Shown piece after piece: positions 7,078 to 24,553 of a stretch of 34,939 bases of DNA. Location of the stretch: positions 1-34,939 of the forward strand of contig JAJRPL010000044.1 of assembly GCA_024280815.1 (NCBI GenBank). The letters run 5' to 3'. The first letter of the stretch is position 1; the number at the start of each line of letters is the position of its first letter. The notes under the pieces were generated by a model that saw nothing but the letters and a program-made list of their open reading frames with translations, did not search any database and had not been told where the DNA came from. The stretch comes from Bacteroidota bacterium (GTDB lineage: Bacteria; Bacteroidota; Bacteroidia; Flavobacteriales; Flavobacteriaceae). The translations under genes were made by a program, and so were the position numbers.

Positions 7078-7389
7078 TTATAAATCTTTTTGCTCTATAA
7101 TTTTACCTGCATTATTAAATAATACTTCAATACTAGCCGTATCGTCTTTAGTCAATTGCACATAATATACTTCTTGACCATCTAATATTGATTTAAAAGC
7201 TTTACCTGCTGTATAATTAGAAAATTCTGAAGTTATAGCATTGGTAATTGCTTCAGGTAATTCACCTACTTGAATTTCACTTTTTTCTTGTTGGATAGTC
7301 TCTGCAGTGGCTTCAACTACATCTTGAGCGAATACGGTACTTGTTAAACTTAATGTCACAAATACAATTAAATAACTTAGCTTTCTCAT
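7078..7389 (-). CDS. Small secreted PepSY-like (BLIP-like fold) protein
   Basis: The protein has 103 residues: signal peptide about 1-21 (ending TSTVFAQ), a short acidic linker, then about 65 residues (ELPEAITNAI, YTAGKAFK, EVYYVQL, ASIEVLFNNAGKIIEQ). That order of helix, charged turn and beta hairpins is characteristic of PepSY_like proteins, which often sit beside two-component systems in Bacteroidota. It is the last of four small genes and is clearly paralogous to the one at 8655-8948. Its promoter carries the 11-bp tandem repeat described under 7421-7453. The function is unknown; an envelope-stress accessory or sensor-modulating role is inference from context. Confidence 0.75.
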   Translation of the reverse strand: MRKLSYLIVFVTLSLTSTVFAQDVVEATAETIQQEKSEIQVGELPEAITNAITSEFSNYTAGKAFKSILDGQEVYYVQLTKDDTASIEVLFNNAGKIIEQKDL

Positions 7390-7420
7390 GATTTTTATTT
7401 TTAATAATTTTTTGTTGATT

Positions 7421-7453
7421 CAAATGTAAATAGAGAATCTAAAGAGAATCTTA
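7421..7453 (-). promoter_or_regulatory. Promoter A: -7 box plus 11-bp tandem operator
   Basis: Plus-strand CAAATGTA (7421-7428; minus TACATTTG, an exact TAnnTTTG) is followed after 3 bases by AGAGAATCTAA (7432-7442) and AGAGAATCTTA (7443-7453). On the minus strand the repeat replaces the -33 region, as expected for activation by an OmpR-family regulator binding direct repeats with an 11-base period. Confidence 0.72.
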
Positions 7454-7492
7454 AGTGTTTTTTTGAGTTAATAAAAGACATTATTAAAATAA

Positions 7493-7523
7493 AAAAAACA
7501 CGCTCAACAAAAGCGTGTTTTTT
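7493..7523. terminator. Second-position bidirectional hairpin (AACACGCT family)
   Basis: Arms AAAAAACACGCT (7493-7504) and AGCGTGTTTTTT (7512-7523) have T-tracts on both strands. It lies between the terminator of the gene at 7709-7924 and promoter A. Confidence 0.7.
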
Positions 7524-7628
7524 AAACGTTGTTCAATAATTTTGTAATATCGAACGTATTCTCAAAAATAGAGAGAAGTGTTTAAATTTAGAGTGTTTAT
7601 TATATTTTAATAAGTTGATTTGGAAAAA

Positions 7629-7668
7629 GAAACAGCTTAACTTTGTAGTAAAAACATTAAGCTGTTTC
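7629..7668 (-). terminator. Terminator of the acidic gene at 7709-7924
   Basis: Perfect 12-base arms GAAACAGCTTAA and TTAAGCTGTTTC; on the minus strand the stem is followed by a TTTTT run. It is nearly identical to the hairpins at 8162-8202 and 8584-8624, so the terminator was duplicated with the gene. Confidence 0.82.
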
Positions 7669-7708
7669 AGTAAAAGCAATCAACCCAATTTGCTTTATTT
7701 TTTAACAA

Positions 7709-7924
7709 TTACTCAGGATTTTCAACTTCCTCAGTAGCTTCCTCAACTTCATCTTCTTTTTTATCATCAACGGCTTCTGTTGCTTCTTCGGTAGCTTCAA
7801 CTTCGGTAGCTTCAACTTCTGTTGCTTCAACAGCTTCTTCTACTGCTGTTTCTTCTTGTGCGAATGTATTTGTACTGATTAAACATAATGCAGCAAATAC
7901 AAATAGGTAACTTAACTTTTTCAT
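7709..7924 (-). CDS. Small secreted acidic, low-complexity Glu/Ala/Thr/Val protein
   Basis: The protein has 71 residues. Residues 1-22 are a signal peptide ending TNTFAQ, almost identical to that of the gene at 8244-8483. The mature part is about 48 residues, almost all Glu, Ala, Val, Thr, Asp and Lys, with tandem VEATE units and a shared C-terminal EEVENPE. No fold or catalytic motif is visible. The unrelated plus-strand frame is a by-product of the repeat composition. Promoter, leader and terminator match the neighbouring small genes, which supports a real expressed gene. The function is not recognised; an exported polyanion is all the sequence shows. Confidence 0.7.
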   Translation of the reverse strand: MKKLSYLFVFAALCLISTNTFAQEETAVEEAVEATEVEATEVEATEEATEAVDDKKEDEVEEATEEVENPE

Positions 7925-7966
7925 AATTTTTGTTTTTAATTATTAGTGTTAATTGTTTTGTTATGA

Positions 7967-7999
7967 CAAACGTAAGAAGAGAATCTAAAGAGAATCTAA
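7967..7999 (-). promoter_or_regulatory. Promoter B: -7 box plus 11-bp tandem operator
   Basis: CAAACGTA (7967-7974; minus TACGTTTG) is followed after 3 bases by two perfect copies of AGAGAATCTAA (7978-7988 and 7989-7999). Geometry is identical to promoter A. Confidence 0.75.
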
Positions 8000-8061
8000 A
8001 GTATTGAATATACTTTTTCGGAGTAAAGTTAGAGATGTTTGGATAGAGTTATGTTACAAAA

Positions 8062-8087
8062 AAAACACGCTATATAAAGCGTGTTTT
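8062..8087. terminator. Second-position bidirectional hairpin (AACACGCT family)
   Basis: Arms AAAACACGCT (8062-8071) and AGCGTGTTTT (8078-8087), preceded by an A-tract so that the minus-strand copy ends in a T run. It sits between the terminator of the gene at 8244-8483 and promoter B. Confidence 0.65.
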
Positions 8088-8161
8088 AATCAATTTCTCT
8101 TAGGGGAGAAATTTTTAAACTTAGAGTGTTTATTGTATTCTGATAAGTTGATTTGGAAAAA

Positions 8162-8202
8162 GAAACAGCTTAATTTTGTAGTAAAATATATTAAGCTGTT
8201 TC
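8162..8202 (-). terminator. Terminator of the acidic gene at 8244-8483
   Basis: Perfect arms GAAACAGCTTAA (8162-8173) and TTAAGCTGTTTC (8191-8202), followed by a T run on the minus strand. Confidence 0.82.
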
Positions 8203-8243
8203 AATTAAAAGCAATCAACCCAATTTGCTTTGTTTTTTAACAA

Positions 8244-8483
8244 TTACTCAGGATTTTCAACTTCCTCAGCAGCTTCTTCAACTTCATCTTCTTTTTTAGC
8301 TTCAACAGTTTTTTTAGCTTCAACAGTAGCATCAGTTGCTTCATCTACAACTTCTTCAGTTGCTTCAACAGCTTCTTCTGTAACTTCAACAGCTTCTTCA
8401 GTTGCTGTTTCTTCTTGTGCGAATGTATTTGTACTGATTAAAAATAATGCAGTAAATACAAATAGGTAACTTAGCTTTTTCAT
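8244..8483 (-). CDS. Small secreted acidic, low-complexity protein (paralogue of 7709-7924)
   Basis: The protein has 79 residues with signal peptide about 1-22 (MKKLSYLFVFTALFLISTNT...). The mature part is composed of EEAVE, VTEEAVEATEEVV and VEAKK units and ends in the same EEVENPE tail as its neighbour. The two genes, with about 90 bases upstream and the terminator downstream, are tandem duplicates that differ mainly in the number and kind of acidic repeats. No enzymatic motif is present. The antisense frame of similar length is a shadow. Expression is supported by a conserved promoter with a degenerate tandem operator. The role is not recognised. Confidence 0.7.
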   Translation of the reverse strand: MKKLSYLFVFTALFLISTNTFAQEETATEEAVEVTEEAVEATEEVVDEATDATVEAKKTVEAKKEDEVEEAAEEVENPE

Positions 8484-8524
8484 GATTTTTGTTTTTAATT
8501 ATTAGTTTCTAATGTTTGTTATGA

Positions 8525-8557
8525 CAAATGTAAATATAGAATCTAAAGATATTCTAA
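8525..8557 (-). promoter_or_regulatory. Promoter C: -7 box plus degenerate 11-bp tandem operator
   Basis: CAAATGTA (8525-8532) is followed after 3 bases by ATAGAATCTAA (8536-8546) and AGATATTCTAA (8547-8557). The 11-base period and spacing are kept although bases have changed, which suggests selection on geometry. Confidence 0.65.
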
Positions 8558-8583
8558 AGTTATTGATTCTTTTAGTAAAAAAA

Positions 8584-8624
8584 GAAACAGCTTAATGTTG
8601 TAGTATAAAATATTAAGCTGTTTC
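8584..8624 (-). terminator. Terminator of the PepSY-like gene at 8655-8948
   Basis: Perfect arms GAAACAGCTTAA (8584-8595) and TTAAGCTGTTTC (8613-8624) with a following minus-strand T run. The second AACACG hairpin is absent from this copy. Confidence 0.8.
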
Positions 8625-8654
8625 AGTAAAAGCAATCAACCCACATTTACTTTA

Positions 8655-8948
8655 TTATTGTATTACTTTGCCTTCAGCATTATAATCTACTTCAATAGCT
8701 TCACCATCTTTAAATAATTGTATTGAATATATATATTGTCCGTTTTTTGAAGATGTAAAGACTTTTCCAACAGAGTATCCTTTATAATCTGTAGCCAATG
8801 CTTTTGCAATTGCTTCAGGAAGTTGATCTAAGTGAATTTCAGCTCTTTCTTGTTGAACCACTTTAGCTACTTGTTCTTCTTGTGCAAAAGTAGTTGTGTA
8901 GATTAAACTTAATAGTATGAATGCTATTAGAGTGCTTAATTTTCTCAT
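8655..8948 (-). CDS. Small secreted PepSY-like protein, first of four promoter-sharing genes
   Basis: The frame is open upstream to 9023, but the correct start is ATG 8948: it begins a signal peptide (MRKLSTLIAFILLSLIYTTT, cleavage after FAQ), and the promoter and operator at 8972-9004 lie inside the longer frame. The 97-residue product has the same plan as the gene at 7078-7389: an acidic linker, then LDQLPEAIAKAL, YSVGKVF, YIYSIQL, AIEVDYNAEGKVI. This looks like the PepSY_like / BLIP-like fold. It lies directly downstream of the histidine kinase gene at 9089-10351 but has its own promoter. The function is unknown; periplasmic feedback on the kinase is an inference. Confidence 0.75.
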   Translation of the reverse strand: MRKLSTLIAFILLSLIYTTTFAQEEQVAKVVQQERAEIHLDQLPEAIAKALATDYKGYSVGKVFTSSKNGQYIYSIQLFKDGEAIEVDYNAEGKVIQ

Positions 8949-8971
8949 GATGTTTATTTGTTTTGTTACCA

Positions 8972-9004
8972 TAAATATAGAAAGAGAATCTAAAGAGAAT
9001 CTAA
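8972..9004 (-). promoter_or_regulatory. Promoter D: -7-like box plus 11-bp tandem operator
   Basis: TAAATATA (8972-8979; minus TATATTTA, one base off TAnnTTTG) is followed after 3 bases by two perfect AGAGAATCTAA copies (8983-8993 and 8994-9004). It is the copy closest to the two-component genes and fixes the start of the downstream gene at 8948. Confidence 0.7.
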
Positions 9005-9088
9005 AGGTGATAGAGATATACAAGACATCCCTTTTAATCCCTCATTGAAGGTTTGTAAATTAAAATCTTTTTGGCCATCGCCCTGCGA

Positions 9089-12109: not shown

Positions 12110-13773
12110 TTAATACGCATCATCATGTACATTAGCGACTGCTCTTCCAGAAGGATCATTCATGTTTTTAAAACTTTCATCCCATTCTAATGCGATTTTT
12201 GTACTACACGCTACAGAAGCTTCTTGAGGCACACATAAAGCGGCAGCATCACTAGGGAAATGTTCTGTAAAAATTGAACGGTAATAAAATTCTTCCTTTG
12301 AAGTTGGGGTTTGTAAAGGGAATTTAAACTTGGCATTTGCCAGTTGTTCATCGGTTATGGCTTCATTTACTACTTCTTTCAAGGTGTCAATCCAACTATA
12401 ACCAACACCATCAGAAAATTGTTCTTTTTGTCGCCAAGCCACACTTTTGGGTATCATATCTTCAAAAGCTTTTCTTACTACCCATTTTTCCATACGTTCA
12501 CCATTAATCATTTTGTCTTGCGGATTGATACGCATGGCAACATCCATAAATTCTTTATCTAAAAAGGGTACACGCCCTTCAATGCCCCAAGCGGCTAAAC
12601 TTTTATTGGCACGCAAGCAATCATACATGTGTAATTTACTCAATTTACGAACTGTTTCTTCATGAAATTCTTTCGCATTTGGTGCTTTATGAAAGTATAA
12701 ATAGCCTCCGAAAAGTTCATCAGCTCCTTCGCCAGATAGCACCATTTTTATTCCCATAGATTTGATAACTCTAGCCATTAAGTACATAGGTGTAGAGGCT
12801 CTAATTGTGGTAACATCATAAGTTTCTAAGTTGTAAATCACATCACGAATAGCATCTAATCCTTCTTGAATGGTGAATTTTATTTCATGGTGAATTGTAT
12901 CTATATGATCTGCGACTACTCGTGCAGCAGCTAAATCTGGCGAACCTTCTAATCCTACAGAAAAGGAATGTAATTGTGGCCACCAGGCATCTTTAGTATC
13001 GTCAGATTCTATACGTTTTTCAGCATATTTTTTTGCTATTGCAGAGGTAATTTATGAGTCTAACCCTCCAGAAAGTAATACTCCATATGGTACATCAGAC
13101 ATCAATTGTCTATGAACAGCAGCTTCTAATGCTTCTTTAATTTCTTGAATACTGGTTTCATTATCTTTTACAGCGTCATATTCCGTCCAATCTCGATGGT
13201 ACCATTTAACAAGTTTTCCATTACTACTTGACATATAATGACCTGGAGGAAATAATTCTATTTTGGTACAAACGCCCTCTAAAGCTTTTAGTTCAGAAGC
13301 AACATAGAAAGTCCCGTTTTGATCCCATCCAATATATAATGGAATAATACCCATGTGATCTCTCGCAATAAAATATTCATCTTTTTCAACATCATAAATA
13401 GCAAAGCCAAAAATTCCATTCATTTCATCAATAAAATCAACACCCTTCTTTTGGTATAATGCTAAAATAACTTCACAATCAGATTCTGTTTGAAAATTGT
13501 ACGAACCTTCAAATTGTTTTCGTAACTCTCTATGGTTATAAATTTCGCCATTGGCAGCTAAAATTAGAGACTTATCCTCATTAAATAGAGGCTGCTTACC
13601 TGAAGCAGGATCAACAATAGCTAGGCGTTCATGAGCTAATATAGCATTATCCTCACTATGAATTCCACTCCAATCTGGACCTCGATGACGAATTTTTTAG
13701 ACATTTCTAAAACTTGAGGTCTTAATACCTCAACATTTTGCTTTAAATCGAATGCACATACAATTCCACACAT
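12110..13773 (-). pseudogene. asnB: Asparagine synthase B (glutamine-hydrolysing), disrupted by a frameshift and an in-frame stop
   Basis: The start is ATG 13773, giving MCGIVCAFD with the N-terminal nucleophile Cys2. After about 26 codons the frame breaks at an A6 tract (T6 on plus, 13693-13698); one extra A restores the conserved RHRGPDWSG. The glutaminase domain then continues (HERLAIVDP, NGEIYNH, MNGIFGFA) to the PP-loop SGGLDS, which is followed at once by TAA (13052-13054) where AsnB has a second Ser (TCA to TAA fits). The synthetase domain is otherwise intact (LSGEGADELFGGY, RVPFLDKEF, ending HDDAY). The restored length of about 554 residues is normal. The enzyme makes Asn from Asp, Gln and ATP. 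Two lesions make it a pseudogene as written; sequencing error is a real alternative. Confidence 0.88.
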
Positions 13774-20205: not shown

Positions 20206-20232
20206 CCTCCCCTTTGGGGAGGTTAGGAGGGG
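20206..20232. repeat. GC-rich palindromic element, trpG-trpD junction
   Basis: CCTCCCC / GGGGAGG around TTT, followed by TTAGGAGGGG. It ends one base before the trpD ATG, so the element directly forms the trpD translation-start region. Confidence 0.7.
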
Positions 20233-20233
20233 A

Positions 20234-21235
20234 ATGAAACAACTATTAAACAGATTAATCAATCACGAAACCATATCGAAAGAAGAGGCAAAACAAGTAT
20301 TGGTAAATATTTCGAAAGGAGATTATAATCAAAATCAGATTGCCTCATTTTTAACGGTATATATGATGCGAAGTGTTACTGTTGAAGAGTTAGAAGGTTT
20401 TAGAGATGCCTTGTTAGAATTGTGTATTGCCATAGATTTGTCTGATTACAATACCGTTGATTTATGTGGTACAGGTGGTGATGGTAAAAACACCTTCAAT
20501 ATTTCTACATTGTCTTCTTTTGTAACTGCTGGGGCAGGAGTACATGTAACCAAACATGGTAATTACGGAGTGTCTTCAATTTCAGGTTCTAGTAATGTGA
20601 TGGAATTTTTAGGGATAAAATTCAGTAATGATAAAGATTTTTTGAAGATGTGTTTAGACCAAGCAGGAATTTGTGTGTTGCATGCACCATTATTTCATCC
20701 TGCTATGAAAAACGTAGCACCTATCCGTAAAGCATTGGGTGTAAAAACTTTTTTTAATATGTTAGGGCCAATGGTAAATCCGTCTTTTCCAAAAAATCAA
20801 TTGGTAGGCGTTTTTAATTTAGAACTGGCGAGAATGTATAGTTATCTCTATCAAAAATCAGATAAAAATTTTACCATTTTACATGCCTTGGATGGTTATG
20901 ATGAAATTTCTTTAACAGGAGCTACAAAAATGATTTCTAATTATACGGAAACTATTCTAAGTCCAGTAGATTTTGGCGTAGATAAAATTCAACAATCTGA
21001 TATATTTGGTGGAAATACCGTTGAAGAATCTGCCAAAATATTTATGAAAGTGATAAGTGGAGAAGGTACAGAAGCTCAAAACAATGTAGTTTCTGCGAAT
21101 GCAGGAATGGCAATTGCAACCGTTAAAAATTTAAATCCAAAAGAAGGCTTTGAACTGGCAAAAGAATCATTATTGAGAGGTAAAGGGTTAGAAACGTTGA
21201 AAAAGTTACAAGAAAAAAGTAGACAGTTGAAATAA
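20234..21235 (+). CDS. trpD: Anthranilate phosphoribosyltransferase
   Basis: The protein has 333 residues, the usual length. It transfers phosphoribose from PRPP to anthranilate. Motifs: GTGGDGKNTFNIST (PRPP/phosphate loop), VTKHGNYGVSSISGSSNVME, HPAMKNVAPIRKALGVKTFFNMLGP, and LDGYDEISLTGAT (Mg-binding acidic pair region). The N-terminal helical bundle begins at MKQLLNRLINHETISKEEA. It begins one base after the palindrome at 20206-20232 and is cotranscribed with trpG and trpC. Confidence 0.96.
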   Translation: MKQLLNRLINHETISKEEAKQVLVNISKGDYNQNQIASFLTVYMMRSVTVEELEGFRDALLELCIAIDLSDYNTVDLCGTGGDGKNTFNISTLSSFVTAGAGVHVTKHGNYGVSSISGSSNVMEFLGIKFSNDKDFLKMCLDQAGICVLHAPLFHPAMKNVAPIRKALGVKTFFNMLGPMVNPSFPKNQLVGVFNLELARMYSYLYQKSDKNFTILHALDGYDEISLTGATKMISNYTETILSPVDFGVDKIQQSDIFGGNTVEESAKIFMKVISGEGTEAQNNVVSANAGMAIATVKNLNPKEGFELAKESLLRGKGLETLKKLQEKSRQLK

Positions 21236-21257: not shown

Positions 21258-21292
21258 TCCTTTCTCCTTTGGAGAGAGGATTTAGGAGAGAG
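21258..21292. repeat. GC-rich palindromic element, trpD-trpC junction
   Basis: CCTTTCTCC / GGAGAGAGG around TTT, with a further TTAGGAGAGAGG, directly before the trpC ATG at 21294. It has the same plan as 20206-20232 (arms, then TTAGGAG...). Confidence 0.65.
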
Positions 21293-21293
21293 G

Positions 21294-22073
21294 ATGAACA
21301 TACTAGACAAAATAATAGCAGACAAAAGAAAGGAAGTCGCCTTAAAAAAGGAACACATTCCAGTTCAACTACTAGAGCAGATACCTTTTTTTGAACGGGC
21401 AACCATTTCTTTGGCAAATAATTTAAGAAATAGCTCAACGGGAATTATAGCAGAATTTAAAAGAAAATCTCCTTCAAAATCTATAATTAATAATACAGCT
21501 ACTGTTGAAGATGTTGCTTTTGGATATGAAAATGCAGGAGTTTGTGGTATGTCAGTTTTAACCGATGAAATTTATTTTGGGGGCACTTTAGATGATTTAA
21601 TACTCGCCAGAGAAAGTTGTAATTTACCACTATTACGAAAGGATTTTGTTATTGATGAATATCAATTGTTAGAAGCTAAAGCTTTTGGTGCTGATGTTAT
21701 TTTATTAATCGCAGCGGTATTGACCAAACAAGAAATCAAACAATTTTCAACCTTTGCAAAAGAATTAGGGTTAGATGTATTGTTAGAAGTACACGATGAA
21801 AAAGAATTACAAAAATCTATCATGCCAAGCTTAGATATGTTAGGTGTAAACAATAGAAATTTAAAAACTTTTGAAGTGAGTTTAGATATGAGTAAAGAGC
21901 TGGCAAGTAAAATACCGAATGATTTTGTAAAAGTTTCTGAAAGTGGTATTAGTTCAGTTGAAGCCATAAAAGAATTAAAACCTTATGGGTATCAAGGGTT
22001 TTTGATAGGCGAGAATTTTATGAAAACTGAAAATCCTGGAGAAAGTGCTAAGAAGTTTATTAGCCTCCTCTAA
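21294..22073 (+). CDS. trpC: Indole-3-glycerol phosphate synthase
   Basis: The protein has 259 residues, a TIM barrel that decarboxylates and cyclises CdRP to indole-3-glycerol phosphate. Motifs: MNILDKIIADKRKEVALKK start, AEFKRKSPSK (catalytic Lys), VLTDEIYFGG, LLRKDFVIDEYQL (catalytic Lys), LLEVHDEKEL, GVNNRNLKTFEV, and SESGI with FLIGENFM at the phosphate site. The C-terminus (FISLL) runs into the palindrome at 22063-22102, which supplies the stop TAA. The original C-terminus may have been slightly altered by that insertion. Confidence 0.96.
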   Translation: MNILDKIIADKRKEVALKKEHIPVQLLEQIPFFERATISLANNLRNSSTGIIAEFKRKSPSKSIINNTATVEDVAFGYENAGVCGMSVLTDEIYFGGTLDDLILARESCNLPLLRKDFVIDEYQLLEAKAFGADVILLIAAVLTKQEIKQFSTFAKELGLDVLLEVHDEKELQKSIMPSLDMLGVNNRNLKTFEVSLDMSKELASKIPNDFVKVSESGISSVEAIKELKPYGYQGFLIGENFMKTENPGESAKKFISLL

Positions 22074-22102
22074 CTCCTACAAAGGAGGGGAATTAAGAGG
22101 TT
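22063..22102. repeat. GC-rich palindromic element overlapping the end of trpC
   Basis: CCTCCT and AGGAGG arms (about 22064-22087) around ACAA-type loop bases, followed by GGAATTAAGAGGTT. It overlaps the last codons and stop of trpC and looks like the reverse orientation of the elements before trpD and trpC. Confidence 0.6.
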
Positions 22103-22129: not shown

Positions 22130-22861
22130 ATGAGTGTAGAACAAGACAAATTCTTTCCCTTCGAGGGAGATGCCGAAAGGCAGAGGGGGCTCAAAATCTG
22201 CGGTATGAAACACCAAGAAAATATCCTAGCAGTTGCTGCATTGCAACCAGACTATCTAGGTTTTATTTTCTATGAAAAATCTGCCCGTTTTTTTGATGGA
22301 GAAATACCCGATTTACCTAAAAACATCAAAAAAGTAGGTGTTTTTGTAGACGCTTCTGTTGAATATATTCTTAAAAAAGTAATTGAATATGATTTGCAAG
22401 CAGTACAATTACATGGCAATGAGTCACCTGAATTTTGTGAAGTATTACTTCGTCACCCTGTCCCGAAGTCTCGGGAGTATTCAGGGTCTCATCAAACAGA
22501 AATCATCAAAGTCTTTTCCATAAAAGACACCTTTAATTTCTCAGTTTTAAAAGCCTATGAAGAAGTGTGTGATTACTTTTTATTCGATACCAAAGGAAAA
22601 AAACCTGGAGGGAATGGTTATACGTTTAATTGGGAAGTGTTAAAAGAGTACCCATCAACAAAACCCTATTTTTTAAGTGGTGGTATTGGGCTTGAAGAAG
22701 TTGACAACATATTGTCTTTCCTGCGTAGGCAGCCCCGAAACTTCGGGGCAAAATATTGCTACGCCATCGACGTAAACAGTAAGTTTGAAATCAAACCAGG
22801 ATTAAAAGATATAGATAAATTAAAAGAATTTAAAAAGAACTTGTCATTTCTATTGAGATGA
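22130..22861 (+). CDS. trpF: Phosphoribosylanthranilate isomerase with translated palindrome insertions
   Basis: The 243-residue product is about 40 longer than the usual 200 or so. Catalytic Cys24 lies in KICGM, and GVFVDA, AVQLHG, FDTKGKKPGGNGYTFNW, FLSGGIG and AIDVNSKFE are all present, so the TIM barrel is recognisable. Because KICGM normally starts at about residue 4, and 22130 is the only in-frame upstream ATG seen, residues 2-20 (DKFFPFEGDAERQRG) are translated from a palindrome. Two more palindromes encode LRHPVPKSREYSGSHQT (between strands, before IIKVFS) and RRQPRNFGAK (before YCYAIDV). All keep the frame and fall in loops. It isomerises PRA to CdRP. Activity is plausible but untested. 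Confidence 0.88.
   Translation: MSVEQDKFFPFEGDAERQRGLKICGMKHQENILAVAALQPDYLGFIFYEKSARFFDGEIPDLPKNIKKVGVFVDASVEYILKKVIEYDLQAVQLHGNESPEFCEVLLRHPVPKSREYSGSHQTEIIKVFSIKDTFNFSVLKAYEEVCDYFLFDTKGKKPGGNGYTFNWEVLKEYPSTKPYFLSGGIGLEEVDNILSFLRRQPRNFGAKYCYAIDVNSKFEIKPGLKDIDKLKEFKKNLSFLLR
22151..22189. repeat. Palindromic element inside the trpF coding start
   Basis: Nested arms CCCTTCGAGGG and TGCCGAAAGGCA followed by GAGGGGG. It is read in frame as part of the TrpF N-terminal extension. Confidence 0.65.
22452..22492. repeat. Palindromic element inside trpF (middle)
   Basis: Outer arms ACCCTG / CAGGGT and inner arms TCCCGA / TCGGGA (loop AGTC). The ends GTCA...TCTCAT match the ends of the element at 24191-24217. 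It is read in frame in TrpF. Confidence 0.75.
22715..22765. repeat. Palindromic element inside trpF (near 3' end)
   Basis: Inner arms CCCCGAA / TTCGGGG (22733-22748) nested in GCGTAG (22723-22728) / CTACGC (22759-22764). It starts GTCTTTCCTGCG, resembling a GTCATTCCTGCG-type terminus. It is translated in frame, adding about 10 residues. Confidence 0.7.
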
Positions 22862-22919: not shown

Positions 22920-22951
22920 TGTCCCCTTGAGGGGACTTTAGGGGTGTTTGA
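22920..22951. repeat. GC-rich palindromic element, trpF-trpB junction
   Basis: GTCCCCTTGAGGGGAC (22921-22936) followed by TTTAGGGGTG. It has the same arms-plus-TTAGGGG plan as the junction elements before trpD and trpC. Confidence 0.7.
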
Positions 22952-24185: not shown

Positions 24186-24190
24186 ATTTT

Positions 24191-24217
24191 GTCATTTCCG
24201 CTTTCGCGGAAATCTCA
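24191..24217. repeat. Left inverted palindromic repeat of the GIY-YIG unit
   Basis: GTCATTTCCGC / GCGGAAATCTC around TTTC. Preceded by TTTT, it forms, with 24514-24540, a pair of inverted terminal elements (TTTTGTCATT at the left edge, AATGACAAAA at the right edge). Confidence 0.75.
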
Positions 24218-24229
24218 TAAATAGTATTT

Positions 24230-24514
24230 ATGCACATGTTTTATGTTTACATATTAACAAATAAGAATCATACAACTTTATATATTGGGATGACTAATAA
24301 TTTAAAGAGGAGGTTAATTCAGCATAAAAATGGAAAGAAAAATTCATTTTCAGTAAGATATAATTTAGATAAACTAGTTTATTTTGAAACTACAAAGTAT
24401 GTCTTAAATGCGATTAAGAGAGAAAAGCAACTAAAAAAGTGGAATAGAGAGTGGAAAAATAACCTAATAAATGGACTGAATCCAGATTGGAATGACCTTT
24501 CGGATAATTTTTAG
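24230..24514 (+). CDS. Small GIY-YIG nuclease-domain protein, inserted between trpB and trpA
   Basis: The protein has 94 residues (or 92 from ATG 24236). It consists of just one GIY-YIG domain: FYVYILTNKNHTTLYIGMT carries the two signature strands (YVYIL and LYIGMT), LKRRLIQHK the conserved Arg helix, and AIKREKQLKKWNREWK the helix with the metal-binding Glu. The family (YhbQ / UPF0213-like small proteins) is common in Bacteroidota and its cellular role is not settled; endonuclease activity is inferred from the fold. The stop TAG shares its last base with the right palindrome, and the start lies 13 bases after the left one. The gene and repeats make a compact 350-base unit within the trp operon. 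Confidence 0.87.
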   Translation: MHMFYVYILTNKNHTTLYIGMTNNLKRRLIQHKNGKKNSFSVRYNLDKLVYFETTKYVLNAIKREKQLKKWNREWKNNLINGLNPDWNDLSDNF

Positions 24515-24540
24515 AGATTCCCTCTTGCGAGGGAATGACA
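24514..24540. repeat. Right inverted palindromic repeat of the GIY-YIG unit
   Basis: GAGATTCCCTC / GAGGGAATGAC around TTGC. Its reverse complement has the same GTCATT...AATCTC termini as the left copy but a different stem (CCCTC versus TCCGC), so ends are conserved while stems vary. Confidence 0.75.
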
Positions 24541-24553
24541 AAACATACACTAA

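Follow-up and report, generated by a model that had tools for sequence, protein, structure and literature searches.

The stretch of DNA analyzed here, referred to as the window, is 34,939 nucleotides long and represents contig 75 of a 2.6-Mb MAG of a marine member of the Flavobacteriaceae that is 72% complete. Its trp operon contains a trpF gene with three palindrome-derived segments (sites 1–3), a partner palindrome at the trpC/trpF junction, and, between trpB and trpA, a gene for a small GIY-YIG nuclease bracketed by two REPs (Table 1). Loci with which the window was compared are designated by L numbers.

Table 1. Features of the trp region of the window
Feature	Position	Strand	Description	Basis or comparison
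Partner palindrome, trpC/trpF junction	22064..22100	+	supplies the trpC stop (22071-22073); replaces the ancestral ATGA overlap	
trpF (phosphoribosylanthranilate isomerase)	22130..22861	+	243 aa, three palindrome-derived segments	PF00697, fold, catalytic residues
Site 1, N-terminal palindromic insert (CCCTTCGAGGG, GCCGAAAGGC)	22151..22189	+	translated FFPFEGDAERQRG	sequence; empty in relatives starting MKLKVCGM
Site 2, CGTC-tagged REP, arms ACCCTG/CAGGGT, tail CTCAT	22451..22492	+	translated RHPVPKSREYSGSH; α4–β5 loop	
Inner palindrome TCCCGAAGTCTCGGGA, nested in the site 2 REP	22461..22476	+		genome counts of family CCCGAANNTTCGGG; similar nesting in L273, L279
Site 3 outer unit, TGTC-tagged REP remnant TGTCTTTCCTGCGTAGGCAG	22713..22732	+	translated SFLRRQ	intact TGTCATTCCTGCGTAGGCAGGAATCCA in L044, L045
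Site 3 inner palindrome GCCCCGAAACTTCGGGGC	22732..22749	+	translated PRNFGA; α7–β8 loop; replaces GAATCC of the REP	
TGTC REP, left boundary of the trpB/trpA GIY-YIG unit	24190..24213	+	8-bp stem, 4-nt loop, head outward	
Single-domain GIY-YIG nuclease, candidate REP mobilizer	24230..24514	+	94 aa	PF01541, E 3e-16; REP flanks
TGTC REP, right boundary of the GIY-YIG unit	24517..24540	-	head outward	

The product of trpF matches PF00697 (E 5e-33), and an AlphaFold2 model built on a 49-sequence alignment matches the TrpF structures 1nsj and 1v5x (TM 0.83 by target), so that both the PRAI domain and the barrel fold are found. Cys24 (in KICGM), Arg53, and Asp153 (in FDTKG) are present and the reading frame is intact, in agreement with an earlier note on this DNA, made from the sequence alone, that the catalytic motifs are kept. 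That note had also described TrpF as overlong, with the surplus in three segments that coincide with palindromes. Alignment with 27 relatives and verification of the palindromes in the sequence bear this out: the protein is ~35–40 residues longer than those of close relatives (205–209 aa), at exactly three places. The N terminus is extended by about 18 residues, the middle segment (QLHGNESPEFC to IIKVF) has 26 residues compared with a mode of 14, and the third (SGGI to DVNS) has 27 compared with a mode of 23. At least two GC-rich hairpins, the observed number, are reached in 0.2% of codon-shuffled versions of trpF. Separately, in L030, L034, L036, L060, and L064, which represent several genera, TrpF lies within a single open frame of 609–628 aa, apparently a trpF-trpB fusion.

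The N-Terminal Segment

In relatives, trpF starts MKLKVCGM and its ATG overlaps the trpC stop codon as ATGA (L002, L003, L007, L008, L013, L046, L047, L051, L059). In the window, L043, L004, and L044, trpC and trpF are separated by more than 100 bp containing two palindromes. The trpC stop of the window lies within the first of these (CCTCCTCTAA), and the second is read as the N terminus of TrpF. No ATG, GTG, or TTG occurs in frame between 22130 and KICGM in the window; therefore, site 1 is translated if TrpF is made. In L043, L004, and L005, the palindrome ends in GGTGTGAG or GGGGTGAGG, which creates an in-frame GTG, and an ATG is found there in L044, so that TrpF of these four loci could start 3′ of the palindrome. 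The original start has been displaced, as proposed previously, but the first seven residues of the protein (MSVEQDK) are nonpalindromic.

Site 1 has neither a CGTC nor a TGTC tag and so falls outside the CGTC-tagged REPs; relatives have a CTCTCC..GGAGAG palindrome at this position. The site 1 palindrome belongs to a family other than those of sites 2 and 3 and splits the ancestral ATGA overlap of trpC and trpF. GC-rich palindromes mark almost all junctions of the trp operon in the window (20206–20237, 21258–21294, 22064–22100, and 22921–22936).

The Nested REP of Site 2

Site 2 is laid out as CGTC-ACCCTG-[TCCCGAAGTCTCGGGA]-GTATT-CAGGGT-CTCAT. The CGTC tag adjoins an A-initial stem (CGTC-ACCCTG), as in CGTC-tagged REPs. 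In place of their 8–9-bp stem and 4–5-nt loop, site 2 has 6-bp arms and a 21-nt loop that contains the inner palindrome, and its tail is CTCAT rather than CCA; flavobacterial REPs in this analysis often end in CTCA. A simple short-loop form, CGTCACCCTGAATTTATTTCAGGGT, is present in L006, and decayed forms of the nested element are present in L010, L011, L012, and L008.

The inner palindrome belongs to a family, CCCGAANNTTCGGG (CCCGAAN(0-5)TTCGGG), with 18 sites genome-wide compared with none for a reversed control pattern. Members of this family are likewise nested in intergenic REPs at two unrelated loci, as TGTCATTCCTG[TCCCGAAACTTCGGGA]GCAGGAATCCA in L279 and as CGTCACCCTG[TCCCGAAGCTTCGGGA]TATAATGACG in L273, and the genome also has a CCCGAAACTTCGGG palindrome within a gene other than trpF, in the hypervariable linker of a helix-hairpin-helix protein (L278/L311). 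The genome was sampled by stretches; 22 of the 81 contigs sampled read as N, and density figures derive from the remainder. A strict REP scan of this sample, the definition of which misses decayed copies, gives nine hits, no more than in shuffles; therefore, copy number was taken from patterns, by which REPs are few (11 GTCATTCC..GGAATC sites).

Two further arrangements were observed. In L270 (G000:C92:40, 107, 174), a 67-nt tandem repeat has CCCGAAACTTCGGG in every unit, and L267, L268, L274, L275, and L277 are five MITE-like copies with inverted ends near AACGTGAGTTCGACAT that combine a CCCGAAGATTCGGG palindrome with a TGTC REP.

Repeated Insertion into One Loop

Among 73 TrpFs, the segment from CGM to QLHG varies between 64 and 71 aa and that from IKVF to LSGGI is 52 aa in 71 proteins, and site 2 ranges across Flavobacteriaceae from 12 to 71 aa with a mode of 14. 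The REP families in long site 2 loops differ between genera, and the REPs often form a plus-then-minus pair (L052, L076, and L045). In L052, from Aquaticitalea lipolytica, the REPs are GTCATTCCGAA and GTCATGCTGAAC and the predicted TrpF peptide is CHSEFISESDDEMLKQVQHD; L070 also has GTCATGCTGAAC. The REP is ACCCCGAAC in L076, TTTCGAGCGCAGTCGAGAAATC in L071 and L087 with variants in L080 and L089, and CATTACGAG in L045 and L046. In L016 (G006:C268), two outward REPs in site 2 of trpF surround a gap of 338 N, approximately the size of a GIY-YIG unit.

Alignment with relatives, the check suggested in the earlier note, placed the surplus residues at three points and revealed empty sites in sister sequences. 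The L052 loop is 35 aa compared with 14 aa in each of L059, L062, and L068, the difference being an exact 63-nt block that is a perfect plus/minus REP pair; the L013 loop is 38 aa compared with 14 aa in L003 and L007. The label “REP in site 2” requires about 11 changes on a tree of the TrpF core of which the deep forks are weakly supported (bootstrap range 10–12, with at least five changes forced by well supported branches). Hairpin shuffles within single loops give weak P values for decayed copies, and weight was therefore placed on the cross-species comparison. The α4–β5 loop, site 2, is a hotspot of repeated independent REP insertion.

The Third Segment

In L044 and L045, site 3 holds an intact REP, TGTC-ATTCCTGC-GTAG-GCAGGAAT-CCA, read as SFLRRQES, in which the tag, the 8-bp stem, the 4-nt loop, and the CCA tail are all present. 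From the copy in the window, the stem's 3′ half has been lost; GCCCCGAAACTTCGGGGC took the place of the 3′ part of the REP, with a gain of four residues. The site 3 loop is mostly 23 aa whether or not a homologue bears a REP, such that the outer REP adds no length; replacement is therefore likelier than simple insertion, and only the inner palindrome adds residues. As judged from the sequence, the outer REP of site 3 could possibly reflect either replacement or convergence. A third palindrome had been noted before and is present, at 22713–22749; its previously assigned end, 22765, was over-extended, since TGCTACGCC represents conserved CYA codons that are also found in relatives without the insert. 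The outer arms formerly attributed to this palindrome were rejected as conserved codons.

Position of the Segments in the Fold

The active site of a (β/α)8 barrel is situated at the C-terminal ends of the strands, in the β-to-α loops. The AlphaFold2 model has a mean pLDDT of 88 and assigns α4 to residues 100–108, β5 to 124–131, α7 to 188–199, and β8 to 210–215. The inserts make up the N terminus, the α4–β5 loop, and the α7–β8 loop in this model, with pLDDT values below those of the core. Placement on a structure, another check that had been suggested, was thus carried out on the model, in which all three inserts are predicted to lie opposite the catalytic face of the barrel.

Origin of the Segments

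Taken together, it is quite likely that mobile palindromic repeats inserted in frame gave rise to the three segments and were thereby turned into protein. This reading is directly supported by the palindromes, the multicopy families, the empty sites of sisters, the repeated insertion at site 2, the selection on the core, and the position of the inserts in the model. CGTC/TGTC-tagged REPs would have entered sites 2 and 3, each later acquiring an inner CCCGAA..TTCGGG palindrome, and at site 1 a palindrome of another family, plus its partner, may have split the trpC/trpF overlap. The inserts presumably persist because they encode open, flexible peptide where a TIM barrel tolerates it, on the face opposite the active site.

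An improbable alternative is that the palindromes arose in place, through replication template switching at hairpins that perfected imperfect inverted repeats, with no involvement of mobile copies. Palindromes within palindromes, seen at both site 2 and site 3 as well as in L043, L279, and L273, would fit such a process, but the inner unit and the outer one each belong to a shared, tagged family that recurs at unrelated loci, and entire plus/minus REP pairs appear at once in L052 and L076.

It is very improbable that the extra residues are ordinary ancestral loops with DNA that is palindromic by chance. TrpF loops do vary, and site 3 is 23 aa with or without a REP; against this stand exact REPs with genome-wide copies, sisters that differ by one block, and a single site occupied by different REP families. 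Distant Bacteroidota, to which the earlier note had pointed for a possible refutation of insertion, lack the residues, and the Bacteroides loop is 14 aa. For sites 1 and 2, as opposed to the outer unit of site 3, the ancestral-loop explanation is already largely refuted.

Decay of TrpF, as a pseudogene or MAG artifact in which inserts are tolerated for want of selection, is extremely improbable: although the source is an incomplete MAG and further ORFs of the window appear disrupted (295–1248 and 12110–13423), the frame survives three inserts with every catalytic residue kept, the core is under purifying selection (dN/dS 0.05–0.19 against seven relatives), this is the single trpF found in the genome, and the hotspot recurs in assemblies of cultured strains (L052, L070, and L080).

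REP-Bracketed GIY-YIG Genes

The 94-aa protein encoded between trpB and trpA matches PF01541 above the cutoff and contains YVYIL..LYIGMT, identifying a GIY-YIG domain. REP-bracketed GIY-YIG loci comprise 24190–24540 of the window together with L143–L175, L237–L265, and L295–L310 from Bacteroidota and Proteobacteria. For 55 GIY-YIG genes of the genus and family, the flanks up to 140 nt from the gene (15.4 kb) contain 40 strict REPs, compared with 16 elsewhere (141 kb). Of these 40 flanking REPs, 38 are oriented head-outward, and their distance from the gene is mostly 9–44 nt on the upstream side and between −7 and 16 nt on the downstream side. REP identity is 0.86 within a pair compared with 0.64 across pairs. 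The arrangement extends to Alphaproteobacteria: homologues carried by plasmids and secondary replicons in Shinella, Rhizobium, Neorhizobium, Novosphingobium, and Sphingobium are bracketed in the same manner, and Aeromonas shows it roughly. The homologue from Neisseria (47% identity) is situated inside an array of CGTCATTCCCGC..GCGGGAAT repeats, which is not the bracketed arrangement. Many GIY-YIG genes have no REP by the strict test, including trpB/trpA ones of other genera (L237–L243, 69–77% identical). The REP pairs inside trpF of L052, L076, and L045 are oriented as the ends of a GIY-YIG unit would be after loss of the gene.

No strict CGTC/TGTC REP occurs within 1.5 kb of any of 27 Y1 transposase loci in the genus. 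Because REPs bracket GIY-YIG genes and not Y1 transposase genes, the GIY-YIG nuclease is the best candidate mobilizer; for the proposal that REPs are spread by the small nucleases that they bracket, a candidate role that we infer, the chances appear about even. The nuclease might cut at the tagged hairpin, upon which a REP–REP unit, with or without the nuclease gene, would be copied into new sites, by analogy with the role supposed for RAYT transposases with GTAG REPs. CGTC REPs may, tentatively, represent the ends of a mobile unit of ~350 bp (REP, GIY-YIG gene, inverted REP) present in several phyla, of which gene-less REP–REP derivatives would enter protein genes in frame and would have repeatedly built new surface loops of TrpF.

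A less likely, though conceivable, reading is that the trpB/trpA junction harbors the GIY-YIG gene as a free-standing homing endonuclease, with REP flanks as incidental passengers. GIY-YIG genes are found at this junction (24186–24553 in the window) in at least 19 genomes from many genera with 46–78% identity, often without recognizable REPs, and the junction is a possible homing target. The tight spacing and orientation of the REP flanks at dozens of other loci, the matching of REPs within pairs, and the presence of such flanks in other phyla argue against incidental passengers. Mobilization by RAYT-type (Y1, HUH) transposases instead of GIY-YIG nucleases is highly unlikely: Y1 transposases occur in 11 of 17 genomes of the genus and have elsewhere been associated with GTAG REPs (PMC3733652), but the Y1 loci lack the head-outward flanks of the GIY-YIG genes, and Di Nocera et al. 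likewise found no CGTC-flanked RAYT in 2013 (PMC3733652).

GIY-YIG genes at trpB/trpA are present in L005, L033, L036, L045, L054, L056, L060, L064, L081, L083, L101, L171, and L237–L243; others are located at trpD/trpC in L054 and L089 and at trpC/trpF in L006. Site 2 loops are not predictably longer where the trp locus contains a GIY-YIG gene (P 0.20), and local seeding of trpF inserts by the trp-operon gene was unsupported in that comparison. Members of another GIY-YIG subfamily are found beside or between seemingly duplicated tRNA gene fragments in L146 and L152 (also L143, L148, and L150).

Comparison with Known Repeat Systems

CGTC-tagged REPs were described by Di Nocera, De Gregorio, and Rocco in 2013, are present in Bacteroidetes, and had no dedicated enzyme reported; they include RPE-4 and RPE-6 of Rickettsia, and their hosts include Azospirillum lipoferum, Novosphingobium aromaticivorans, and Neisseria (PMC3733652), all of which are also hosts of GIY-YIG homologues. 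By sequence features, the site 2 insert and the outer unit of site 3 appear to belong to this REP superfamily of RPE-4 and RPE-6. The elements described here share with CGTC-tagged REPs the CGTC/TGTC tag, the A-initial short stem, dispersed copies, paired units, and an occurrence of some copies inside ORFs of known proteins (PMC3733652); they differ from them as described in that one enzyme loop is hit repeatedly across a family, in their nesting, and in the bracketing of a GIY-YIG gene.

The comparison with Rickettsia palindromic elements made in the earlier note, that of palindromic repeats lying in frame in a conserved gene, holds because the site 2 loop was repeatedly filled by REPs and clean empty-site sisters exist, with the link to RPEs made through the published class assignment (PMC3733652). 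The likeness is one of class, that of palindromes lying in frame and translated; RPE-1 is longer and not so tagged, and the present host is not intracellular. The inverted REP pair as a unit, and the flanking of a presumed mobilizer's gene, are shared with the GTAG REPs, REPINs, and RAYTs, whereas the tag here is CGTC/TGTC and the enzyme is a GIY-YIG protein rather than an HUH tyrosine transposase, with none of the Y1 loci flanked.

Among the papers searched, none linked GIY-YIG proteins to REPs. Chenal et al. reportedly described in 2025, from transformation and biochemistry, a family of site-specific single-strand GIY-YIG nucleases, Ssn, that acts on the Neisseria NTS repeat. As in that reported system, a single-domain GIY-YIG protein is tied to a dispersed repeat; insertion into protein genes and head-outward bracketing go beyond it.

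In-frame palindromic insertion was previously viewed mainly as a peculiarity of Rickettsia. Here, a loop of an easily assayed enzyme from cultivable, free-living bacteria has repeatedly taken up different mobile palindromes, and, as empty-site sisters exist, both the cost of newly translated mobile DNA and its fate become directly measurable. The bracketing of GIY-YIG genes offers a testable answer to the 2013 question of what moves CGTC REPs and, if the proposal is true, the TrpF loop would be a natural record of mobile DNA becoming protein.

Other Features of the Window

The disrupted ORFs of the window encode an M28-type peptidase and an asparagine synthetase, each split into two ORFs by a frameshift or an assembly error. 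At 7078–9023, a gene for a small secreted protein (~100 aa) is present in tandem copies separated by conserved spacers.
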